Shown here: one piece after another, positions 4,859-57,182 of the stretch | Layout of the letters: every line of letters begins with the position of its first letter | Position numbering within the stretch: position 1 is the first letter of the stretch | From: Bartonella ancashensis | GTDB taxonomy: Bacteria; Pseudomonadota; Alphaproteobacteria; Rhizobiales; Rhizobiaceae | DNA length: 64,000 bases | NCBI RefSeq assembly: GCF_001281405.1 | Contig: NZ_CP010401.1 | Coordinates: forward strand, 520,001 to 584,000 | Reading direction: 5' to 3' | Position numbers and translations under genes: made by a program | The notes under the pieces: model-generated | Database searches by the model: none | Told to the model about the DNA's origin: nothing | Seen by the model: the letters and a program-made list of their open reading frames with translations, nothing else

Positions 4859-6262
4859 TTACTCATCCCTATTATCGGAAGAAGATGAGAAAAATGAAAC
4901 AATAATATTAGCCAATTTTTGAGCAACTTGTTTTTTAGTCATAAGTGGCCATTTATCGACAGTCTCTTTACTGATAAGGTAAATTGTATTGCTGTCAGAA
5001 TCCATAACAGTTGTGCCATCAGCACGAAGTGATATATCATTTGCAAGAATGAAGTCTGCATTTTTTTGAACACATTTTTTTTGAGCATTAACAATAATAT
5101 CACATGTTTCAGCAGCAAAACCGATCACAAGTGGAGGACGATTTGAAGCATAGCCGATTGTTGCCAAAAATGTCAGGATTTTCCACCATTTGTAAAGATG
5201 GTGGTATAGCATTGTCCTGTTTTTTATTTTTTTCAAAGAATGTGTTTTACAACGCCAATCACAAACAGCAGCGGCAAAAATAGCACCATCAGCAGGTAAA
5301 GCTGCTTGAACAGCGTGGAACATTTGCAAAGCTGTTTCGACATGAATAGTTTTTACTCCTGGAGGATTAGGCAGATTAACAGGACCACAAACAAGTGTAA
5401 CTTCAGCCCCTAGGGCAGCTAGAGCTGTTGCAATTGCATGCCCCTGTTTTCCTGATGAACGATTGGTTAGGTAACGAATAGGATCAATTTGTTCACGTGT
5501 GGGACCAGAAGTGACAATAAAGTGACGGCCAGAAAGAGATTTATTACACTTTTCAAGAAGCGTTTCCGCAAAAGCTACAATAGTTAATGGTTCACTCATG
5601 CGTCCATATCCAGCTTCGTTTTTTTCGGCCATTTCACCATTTTCTGGTCCGATGATATGAACTCCATCTTCTCGTAATTGGGTGATATTACGGACAGTTG
5701 CAGGGTGCGTCCACATGGTAGGATTCATAGCTGGCGCAATTAAGAGCGGGCAGCGGGTTGCTAGAAGAACACAATTAGCCAAATCGTCTGCAATGCCAGT
5801 TGCTATTTTTGCGATACGGTTTGCAGTAGCAGGTGCTAGAATGATGAGATCTGCATTACGCGCTAACCGAATATGGCTAATGTCGAGTTCTTTTTCGCAT
5901 GAAAATAAATCACTATATACAGTTCCATTGGTTAAAGCTTCGACCACTAAGGGAGTAATAAATTTTTGAGCTGCTTGTGTTACAATAACGTTCAAATATG
6001 CTCCACGTTCTTGCAAACGGCGAATTAAATCAAGAGCTTTATAGGCTGCAATTCCACCACCAATAATGAGAAGAATTGATGTTGATTGCAATGACTGCAT
6101 GTTATTTGCATTTGCTCGATAAAGTGGTTCAAATGGTTTAGTAAGATTATTTAAGAGGTGGCGCGTTGCTGCTTCTTCTAAGGTAATTCCTTTTTTTGTA
6201 GCATATGTACGCAAAAATTCCTCAGCTTCAGATGAAAGATTACGAATAGTAATACTGGTCAT
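4859..6262 (-). CDS. coaBC: CoaBC (phosphopantothenoylcysteine decarboxylase / phosphopantothenate-cysteine ligase) with N-terminal ribbon-helix-helix extension
   Basis: Makes 4'-phosphopantetheine from phosphopantothenate and cysteine in CoA synthesis. From the ATG at 6262 there are three parts. Residues 1-47 resemble a FitA-type ribbon-helix-helix domain (MTSITIRNLSSEAEEFL). The CoaC flavoprotein domain has GGGIAAYKALDLIRRL, the histidine in DISHIRLA and PAMNPTMW; the position of E. coli Dfp Cys158 lies in EMAEKNEAGYGRM, without cysteine. The CoaB domain has SGPTREQIDPIRYLTNRSSGKQG and GFAAET. Odd point: between 5225 and 5166 about 18 codons are read out of frame. One added A and one removed T restore KKQDNAIPPS then LQMVENPDILATIG, the family sequence. 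As given, the KxKK ligase motif is KIKN. Last gene of ubiE-ubiB-coaBC. Confidence 0.92.
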   Translation of the reverse strand: MTSITIRNLSSEAEEFLRTYATKKGITLEEAATRHLLNNLTKPFEPLYRANANNMQSLQSTSILLIIGGGIAAYKALDLIRRLQERGAYLNVIVTQAAQKFITPLVVEALTNGTVYSDLFSCEKELDISHIRLARNADLIILAPATANRIAKIATGIADDLANCVLLATRCPLLIAPAMNPTMWTHPATVRNITQLREDGVHIIGPENGEMAEKNEAGYGRMSEPLTIVAFAETLLEKCNKSLSGRHFIVTSGPTREQIDPIRYLTNRSSGKQGHAIATALAALGAEVTLVCGPVNLPNPPGVKTIHVETALQMFHAVQAALPADGAIFAAAVCDWRCKTHSLKKIKNRTMLYHHLYKWWKILTFLATIGYASNRPPLVIGFAAETCDIIVNAQKKCVQKNADFILANDISLRADGTTVMDSDSNTIYLISKETVDKWPLMTKKQVAQKLANIIVSFFSSSSDNRDE

Positions 6263-22758: not shown

Positions 22759-23523
22759 ATGGATCAAGATGTTTTTTGCCAGTTTTTTTCGTTTAACGGT
22801 ATAACTCTTGCGGTGCGTCATAGAAAAGGTGCTTGTTCTCCTGGTTTAGTCGTGTTGCCTGGTTATCGTGCTAATATGCTGGGTGATAAGGCGACAGCCA
22901 TCGATTCTTTTGCGAAAAAAATAACTTATCTTGTTTGCGTTTTGATTATTCTGGCCATGGTGAATCGGGAGGAGATTTTTTTTCAAGGGACGATATCTCG
23001 TTGGGTGGAAGAAAGTTTAGCAGTGTTTGAAGCGTATTGTGAAGGACCTCAAATTTTAATTGGGTCTTCTATGGGTGGGTGGATTGCTATGAGACTTGCC
23101 ACGCTGCTCGCGCAGCAAGGTAAAGAGATTGCTGGTATAGTTTTGATTGCACCTGCGACCGATTTTACGGATGCTTTGATTAAACCAGTTTTAAAAGAAG
23201 TTGAATTGAAAGACTTAGAAGAAAAAGGTTATTGTGAAGTGCCTTTAAGCGAGCAATCAGAGCCACTGCCGTTTACAAAAATATTGCTCGAGGATGGAAA
23301 AAACAATAGCATCATGAATGGTTGTCTTGATGTTAAGTGTCCGATTCATATTTTACAAGGGATGGAGGATGAACCGGTTCCTTACCAACATTCAATGGAT
23401 TTGCTTGATCATCTTCCTTTAAATGATGTTACCTTGACACTCGTTCGTGATGCAGATCATAATTTTTCGCGTCCAAAGGATTTGGATTGTCTTGAAAGAG
23501 TAATAATGTCTCTAATTAATTGA
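22759..23523 (+). CDS. Alpha/beta hydrolase, with an out-of-frame internal segment
   Basis: Serine hydrolase-fold protein, 254 aa; substrate unknown. VVLPGYRANMLGDKA starts the core, GSSMGGW holds the nucleophile serine, and DADHNFSRP provides the catalytic histidine near the C-terminus. Between an A7 run at 22915-22921 and a T8 run at 22976-22983 the translation is KITYLVCVLII then LAMVNREEIFF, which fits no hydrolase. Adding one A and removing one T gives KNNLSCLRFDYSG then HGESGGDFF, the conserved strand and HG loop of the family. As given, the protein would lack that loop and probably not fold properly. The stop-free frame is kept because the two shifts cancel. The gene runs ahead of the YgjP-type metalloprotease gene by 48 bp. 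Confidence 0.8.
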   Translation: MDQDVFCQFFSFNGITLAVRHRKGACSPGLVVLPGYRANMLGDKATAIDSFAKKITYLVCVLIILAMVNREEIFFQGTISRWVEESLAVFEAYCEGPQILIGSSMGGWIAMRLATLLAQQGKEIAGIVLIAPATDFTDALIKPVLKEVELKDLEEKGYCEVPLSEQSEPLPFTKILLEDGKNNSIMNGCLDVKCPIHILQGMEDEPVPYQHSMDLLDHLPLNDVTLTLVRDADHNFSRPKDLDCLERVIMSLIN

Positions 23524-55492: not shown

Positions 55493-56319
55493 CTAATTCT
55501 GGAATACTGGCTCATGGGATCCGCGTAACTTATCGTAACGGTCATACTGCATTGTACGATGTAAGCTTTGAAAGTCCAGTGCATTCGATCACTGCTTTAG
55601 TTGGGGTTAACGGTTCAGGAAAGTCGACTCTGTTTAAGGCAATAATGGGGTTTGTAAGGCCTTCAAAAGGAGAAATTCGTATTTTTGATTTACCTGTTGA
55701 TCAGGCCTTAAAGAAGAATCTGATAGCTTATGTACCTCAGAGTGAGGATGTTGATTGGAATTTTCCTGTTCTCGTTGAAGATGTTGTTTTGATGGGACGA
55801 TATGGTCATATGAATTTCTTTCGTTACGCTCGAGTACAGGACTATGAAGCTGTTTATGCTGCATTAGAGCGTGTTGATATGCTGGCCTTTGCTAAACGTC
55901 AAATTGGTGAGCTTTCTGGTGGACAGAAAAAGCGTGTTTTTTTAGCACGTGCTCTTGCGCAGCAAGCGAAGGTAATCTTACTTGATGAACCATTCACAGG
56001 AGTTGATATCAAGACAGAAGATAAGATTATCATGCTATTGGAAAGTTTACGTGAAGAGGGTGCCGTGATTTTGGTTTCGACCCATAATTTGGGTTCTGTT
56101 CCTGAATTTTGTGATCGTACAGTCTTAATAAAGGGGACAGTTTTGGCTTGTGGATTAACAGAAGAGATCTTTACGCAAGAAAATCTTGAAAGAACTTTCG
56201 GAGGCACTTTGCGCCACCATATTTTTGATTTTAAGAATACAAAAAAAGACGATGTCGTTGCGGAGAATAGGGGTTCTTTATTTTCGGACTGCAGTCAGAA
56301 GTCGGGGCATGTTGTATGA
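55489..56319 (+). CDS. sitB: Mn/Fe ABC transporter ATPase
   Basis: 276 aa ATPase: Walker [11 protein letters not shown]-loop [13 protein letters not shown] (typical for metal-type transporters), signature LSGGQKKR, Walker [11 protein letters not shown], and THNLGSV as H-loop. The C-terminal 45 residues extend past the usual end. Drives uptake through SitC/SitD. Confidence 0.95.
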
Positions 56320-57182
56320 TTTCTTTGTTGCTTGAACCATTAAGTTATCAATACATGGTTAATGCGATATGGGTTTCGGGATTAGTGGGGTGTGTCTGTG
56401 CTTTCCTTTCTGCTTTTCTAATGTTAAAGGGATGGTCTCTAATTGGTGATGCACTTTCACACTCAATTGTGCCGGGGATAGCAGGGGCATATCTTCTAGG
56501 ATTGCCTTTTTCTTTAGGGGCATTTTTTTCTGGTGGATTAGCTGCGGCAGCGATGTTGTTTTTTCATCATCGAACAAAATTGAAAGAGGATACTATTATT
56601 GGTTTAATTTTTTCTTCTTTTTTTGCTCTTGGATTATTTCTTAAGTCGTTAAAGCCGATGGCCGTTAGTATTGATACGATCGTTCTTGGGAATGTTTTAG
56701 CTATTAGCTCATCAGATATCGTACAGCTAGCCTGTATAGGTTTTGTTTCTTTATTTATATTGCTTTTGAAGTGGAAAGACTTACTGGTTTCTTTATTTGA
56801 CGAGAACCATGCACGCGCTATTGGGTTAAATGTGCAGTTTACAAAAATTCTTTTTTTACACTCCTGGCTGCGTGTACCATTGCTGCTATGCAGACAGTGG
56901 GGGCTTTTTTTGGTCATTTGCCTTGTAGTAACACCAGGAGCTACAGCGTATCTCTTGAGTGATCGTTTTGTAAATCTTTTAATAATTGCGGTACTGATTG
57001 GAACATTAACAAGTATGTTTGGTGTTTATGTAAGCTATTTCTTAAATGCACAGACTGGTGGTGTTGTTGTTCTTTTTCAAGCACTTTTATTCGTGATCGC
57101 TTTCATTTTTGCTCCTAAACATGGTTTCATTGCTGCGCGTCTGCGTGTAAGAAAAGCAAAAAAGGATGCAGTAATATCATGA
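56316..57182 (+). CDS. sitC: Mn/Fe ABC transporter permease SitC, with an out-of-frame internal segment
   Basis: ABC-3 family permease, 288 aa, with about eight hydrophobic segments; [21 protein letters not shown] and [14 protein letters not shown] are family landmarks. Between a T7 run (56851-56857) and a second T7 run (56905-56911) it reads [11 protein letters not shown] then CRQWGLFL, charged and unlike a permease helix. With one T more in the first and one fewer in the second the same bases give [10 protein letters not shown] then [10 protein letters not shown], the expected helix. As given, one membrane helix would be disrupted, though the overall frame is kept. Confidence 0.88.

Follow-up and report, generated by a model that had tools for sequence, protein, structure and literature searches.

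Paired homopolymer shifts in the recorded coaBC gene of Bartonella ancashensis are most likely an artefact of the deposited sequence

Results

The coaBC locus

We analysed a 64,000-nucleotide stretch of the B. ancashensis genome (positions 520,001 to 584,000 of NZ_CP010401.1), referred to here as the window. Close to its start lies coaBC (Table 1), whose predicted product is a bifunctional decarboxylase/synthetase, a normally essential coenzyme A enzyme. The protein scores 384.1 bits with the equivalog model TIGR00521, above its curated cut-off of 219.7, over residues 63-457. This range takes in both domains, the flavoprotein domain PF02441 at residues 65-232 and the DFP domain PF04127, which is CoaB, at residues 246-433. 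The recorded protein thus resembles bacterial CoaBC (Dfp) in having both domains over their length, but it differs in the last lysine of the K-x-K-K motif and in the stretch that follows, up to ENPDI. Solved relatives are 6TGV (CoaBC) and 1U7U (the CoaB domain of E. coli). A genome search found the CoaB domain in a single copy, coaBC being the only PF04127 match in B. ancashensis; a back-up CoaB domain for a damaged copy was sought in the same genome and none was found.

Residues 6-35 (window 6167-6256), ahead of the two domains, extend the protein at its N terminus and resemble a FitA-like ribbon-helix-helix domain. The match to PF22513 there scores 19.5 bits, below its cut-off of 27. Counted by hand in the protein table described below (120 proteins listed from 8,000 scored), PF22513 precedes CoaBC in 118. 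A literature search for phosphopantothenoylcysteine decarboxylase together with ribbon-helix-helix found no match among the papers searched. The extension might take part in regulating CoA genes.

Table 1 Features of coaBC and of the other paired genes in the window
Feature	Position in window	Strand	Basis
coaBC ORF, 470 codons	4859-6271	minus	ORF list; TIGR00521, PF02441 and PF04127 matches
A6 run, second half of the A7-T-A6 tract; -1 exit from the family frame	5220-5225	minus	Sequence and frame-aware alignment
49-base stretch out of the family frame, after KIK of K-x-K-K up to ENPDI	5171-5219	minus	Alignment, frame comparison
T5 run; +1 return to the family frame	5166-5170	minus	Sequence and frame-aware alignment
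Alpha/beta hydrolase ORF	22759-23523	plus	Frame-aware alignment
Shifted stretch of the hydrolase, between A7 and T8	22915-22983	plus	Frame-aware alignment
Metal ABC-3 type permease ORF	56316-57182	plus	Frame-aware alignment
Shifted stretch of the permease, between two T7 runs	56851-56911	plus	Frame-aware alignment

A shifted stretch in the CoaB domain

In the reading direction, coaBC runs through an A7-T-A6 tract and, 49 bases past the A6 run, reaches a T5 run. The initial annotation had described the A run as one base too short and the T run as one base too long for the family sequence, with the family peptides reappearing in the shifted frame. Inspection of the sequence and comparison of frames bore out the runs, the opposite shifts and the peptides. 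Between the two runs the recorded ORF frame reads NRTMLYHHLYKWWKILT, and the other frame of the same 49 bases reads QDNAIPPSLQMVENPDI, which is the family sequence; about 17 amino acids of the recorded CoaBC look scrambled. When compared with the reference genomes G004 and G022, the family-frame peptide matches at 14 and 15 of 19 residues and the ORF-frame peptide at 1 of 19 with each, so the match in the family frame exceeds chance.

The recorded motif is KIKN, as first described. K-x-K-K is absent from the ORF frame, but these bases do encode it when read in the other frame. Two of its three lysines are unchanged and the last alone becomes asparagine, a point that the initial annotation did not stress. 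An excerpt of PMC7794376 reports that in the M. smegmatis enzyme every lysine of this motif contacts the CTP triphosphate, directly or via water, and that the motif is widely conserved across bacteria with few exceptions.

Comparison with other coaBC loci

We searched 36 same-genus genomes for coaBC and aligned 29 loci from them with five named Bartonella records, which may duplicate some of the 29 genomes, three loci from outside the genus and the window, giving 38 loci. Outside this alignment are G006, G007, G008 and G021 (matched, locus not cut), G025 (split), G012 (fragment) and G018, for which the search returned no coaBC match. K-x-K-K and NPDI are present in all 37 other aligned loci, and the window's coaBC alone lacks both. 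None of the other Bartonella genes aligned shares the window's residues, a comparison to which the initial annotation had pointed: all 29 genomes and all five named records carry K-x-K-K and NPDI. We therefore rejected a variant shared across Bartonella. In G025, coaBC (C1 41115-42502) occupies two frames and is split near residue 229, at a different place from the window's shift.

A wider protein table comprised 120 relatives listed of 8,000 scored, the window's own protein included. All 120 have the first motif lysine, 119 have the second and 118 the third. At this last position the window has asparagine and P0067, a broken record that ends soon after, has serine. The residues of ENPDI occur in 113 (E), 116 (N), 115 (P), 117 (D) and 117 (I) of the 120 listed; this segment is not absolutely fixed, with one change there in each of P0040, P0044 and P0048. 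P0064 and P0067, two other Bartonella coaBC records, both from short contigs, lose the frame at the same A-rich coaBC tract, do not return to it and end early. The intact P0003 and L004 are 96.6% and 98.6% identical to P0064/P0067 over 351 residues. The coaBC tract is thus troublesome in other records as well.

Genome-wide screen for paired shifts

We screened for similar pairs with reference ORFs from G004 (1,200 of 1,596 kb) and G022 (800 of 1,625 kb) and an aligner permitting frame changes; G004 and G022 aligned to each other served as controls. The screen covered 864 of the 1,468 kb of the B. ancashensis genome, the other 603,695 of its 1,467,695 bases lying outside it, and counts only genes with an ortholog in those portions of the two references. 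We excluded alignments with less than 55% identity or less than 80% coverage (92 of 352, 48 of 237, 47 of 560 and 27 of 536 in the stricter run), as were stretches with long N runs and reference ORFs longer than 900 amino acids (one run) or 1000 amino acids (stricter and looser runs). Shifts within 40 residues of an end under the stricter penalty, or 30 under the looser one, were left out; apparent shifts near ORF ends were set aside as start or end differences.

Under the looser penalty, five B. ancashensis genes showed a -1/+1 pair within 120 nt, and the same five emerged with both references (262 gene comparisons with G004 and 189 with G022). In four of the five pairs both shifts lie in runs of at least five, all eight shifts falling in runs of 5-8. 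Such run-to-run pairs, with both runs of at least five, were absent from the controls (0 of 513 and 0 of 509 gene comparisons). If the four were distributed at random over 1,284 comparisons (262 + 513 + 509, with overlapping gene sets), the chance that all would land in B. ancashensis is about 0.002. The controls did contain opposite pairs, two in one G022 gene and seven in two G004 genes, none with both runs of at least five. Unpaired internal shifts in runs of at least five were few everywhere: three in two B. ancashensis genes with the G004 reference or one with G022, and three and three in the controls. Under the stricter penalty three pairs remained, all within the window.

Besides coaBC, the paired genes of the window are those for the hydrolase and the permease (Table 1). 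The remaining two lie outside it, at about 661.5 and 663.8 kb of the genome, and judged by eye resemble genes for a peptide ABC permease and an ABC ATPase. Of the five, coaBC alone is encoded on the minus strand and the rest are on the plus strand; in the reading direction, -1 precedes +1 in every one. The window makes up 46.1 of 267.5 comparable kb yet holds three of the five pairs, a clustering above expectation for which uneven read depth or uneven finishing is the best explanation we can offer.

Two further cases turned up in the B. ancashensis record itself (G000). Near C1 59716 there is one internal shift in an A7 run against the G022 reference, possibly a record error, and near C1 789500 a low-identity gene shows several shifts of the same sign against the G004 reference, again possibly record errors.

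Age of the shifts

Against both references, the other-frame peptides of all five stretches match relatives at a level similar to or above that of the remaining gene, and the match of the ORF-frame peptides is slight or absent. In the hydrolase, 18 of 20 and 18 of 21 residues match in the other frame and 1 and 2 in the ORF frame; in the permease, the other frame matches at 16 and 17 of 18 residues and the ORF frame at 2 with each reference. For the genes outside the window, one has 5 of 6 residues matching in the other frame and 2 in the ORF frame, the second 4 of 5 and 0.

Differences from relatives, sorted by codon position of the family frame, number 18/8/56 inside the stretches (137 codons) and 675/347/1558 outside them (3,679 codons). 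The wobble pattern of the family frame is therefore intact inside the shifted stretches, with no sequence drift. Differences that fall mostly at third positions imply selection on the family frame up to the present, so that the shifts would be either brand-new or absent from the DNA. This pattern fits a sequencing error; an extremely young mutation would show it too.

Sequencing history of the record

The genome of B. ancashensis 20.00 (CP010401) was assembled with Newbler from Roche 454 reads only, and its completion relied on a restriction map together with PCR and 'open reading frame annotation'. According to PMC4645191, the strain was accepted by ATCC and DSMZ for archiving. The record is one contig of 1,467,695 bases, 1,647 bp longer than the published length of 1,466,048 bp. 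A B. ancashensis-specific PCR described in a 2017 paper places its amplicon at nucleotides 673839-674636 of CP010401 (PMC5382735, in excerpt). Its primers lie in the record at 673839-673865 and 674611-674636, exactly as published, each with one additional exact match elsewhere in the genome. Because these coordinates agree exactly, the length difference would lie past about 674 kb.

Excerpts of two papers describe the weakness of 454 in homopolymers: the technique copes poorly with runs of more than 5 or 6 bases (PMC10688829), and 405 differences between 454 and Solexa data attributed to homopolymers were corrected in another bacterial genome (PMC2793016). The 454-only B. ancashensis assembly likewise shows one-base miscounts in A/T runs. 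Unlike the errors described in these excerpts, however, the B. ancashensis shifts come as opposite pairs, 15-61 nt apart, and the ORF stays open, a pattern suggestive of an extra finishing step. A literature search for 'ancashensis' together with 'homopolymer' found no match among the papers searched; 'ancashensis' and 'frameshift' occur together in one, PMC9414547.

Discussion

The paired shifts in coaBC are very probably a sequencing or finishing artefact of the deposited sequence and most likely do not exist in the organism. We favour this explanation because the data are 454-only, five pairs occur in one genome, the controls contain no run-to-run pair, the wobble pattern is intact and the CoaB domain is single-copy. 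The loss of frame at this tract in P0064 and P0067, beside intact near-identical relatives, adds to the case. The initial annotation had left a choice between wrong base calls and an altered enzyme; this evidence strongly favours the former and speaks against the latter. Its description of a destroyed CoaB region is true of the record and probably not of the organism, whose DNA probably carries the family coaBC sequence and encodes a normal CoaBC.

Such an artefact would begin with a 454 miscount at the A run that puts the recorded coaBC out of frame. A second miscount, or an edit, at the T run 49 bases on would restore the frame, and the recorded ORF would stay open and pass annotation. Given an artefact, we lean slightly towards ORF-guided finishing as the source of the second shift. 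The first shift on its own would lead to a stop, and in each of the three window genes the frame returns at the final run of at least four before that stop, at distances of 38, 34 and 14 nt upstream. These positions and the mention of ORF annotation in the published account make it likely that some frames were closed at the wrong run during finishing. A variant of the same explanation, whose probability is contained in that of the artefact, has 454 simply miscalling both runs, and no ORF-guided editing step. In the four strongest pairs every one of the eight shifts is in a run of 5-8, and an excerpt of PMC10688829 notes that the related Ion Torrent technique may over-call as well as under-call runs. 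Independent errors would nevertheless give mostly singles, and here five pairs exceed the three or one unpaired shifts found, depending on the reference; the order of -1 then +1 in every pair, on either strand, also sits badly with independent miscalls, and we consider this variant possible but rather doubtful. The excess of pairs over unpaired shifts in runs of at least five counts against an artefact more generally, since independent miscalls give more singles and an extra step is needed, either ORF-guided editing or, if the changes are real, selection. The clustering in the window, the opposite pairs outside runs in the controls and the mismatch between the recorded and published genome lengths count against it as well.

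A real change would mean that the loss in the A run and the gain in the T run were fixed very recently, leaving a rewritten CoaB loop in an enzyme that still works or of which little activity is needed. The scarcity of single shifts would fit selection, the frame is restored with the ORF open, the motif retains two of its three lysines and, since the excerpt of PMC7794376 mentions a few exceptions in bacteria, the motif is not absolute. Weighing against a real change are the occurrence of five pairs within a single lineage, none of whose stretches shows signs of age, the lack of run-to-run pairs in the controls, the loss of a near-invariant stretch (K, N, P and D in 118, 116, 115 and 117 of the 120 listed) from the only CoaB domain and the 454-only data, which together make it very unlikely. 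We regard as similarly improbable the broader scenario in which replication slippage gave this small-genome pathogen several such indel pairs in quick succession, each promptly put back in frame, so that the genes stayed open while stretches were replaced in the CoaBC active-site loop, the hydrolase and the transporters. The least credible explanation couples real indels at the A/T runs with polymerase slippage that restores the frame in part of the transcripts, yielding some normal CoaBC or variable expression. A and T runs do lie at both ends of the stretch, and in endosymbionts slippage is known to rescue genes with long A runs; the coaBC runs, however, are short (6 and 5), and slippage at one run alone would break an ORF that is already open, so that two opposite slippages per transcript would be needed. 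The wobble and control evidence weighs against it in the same way.

As an artefact of the record, the paired shifts in coaBC are ordinary as biology but deserve to be flagged as a data-quality problem. B. ancashensis is a human pathogen, and the record is its published complete genome and represents the type material of the species. Paired shifts leave frames open and so escape checks for broken genes, even when, as here, an active-site loop is rewritten. Drug-target or structural work on the recorded CoaBC would begin from a false sequence. The paired-shift test, which looks for opposite shifts in runs and compares frame and wobble with relatives, is usable on other 454-only genomes.
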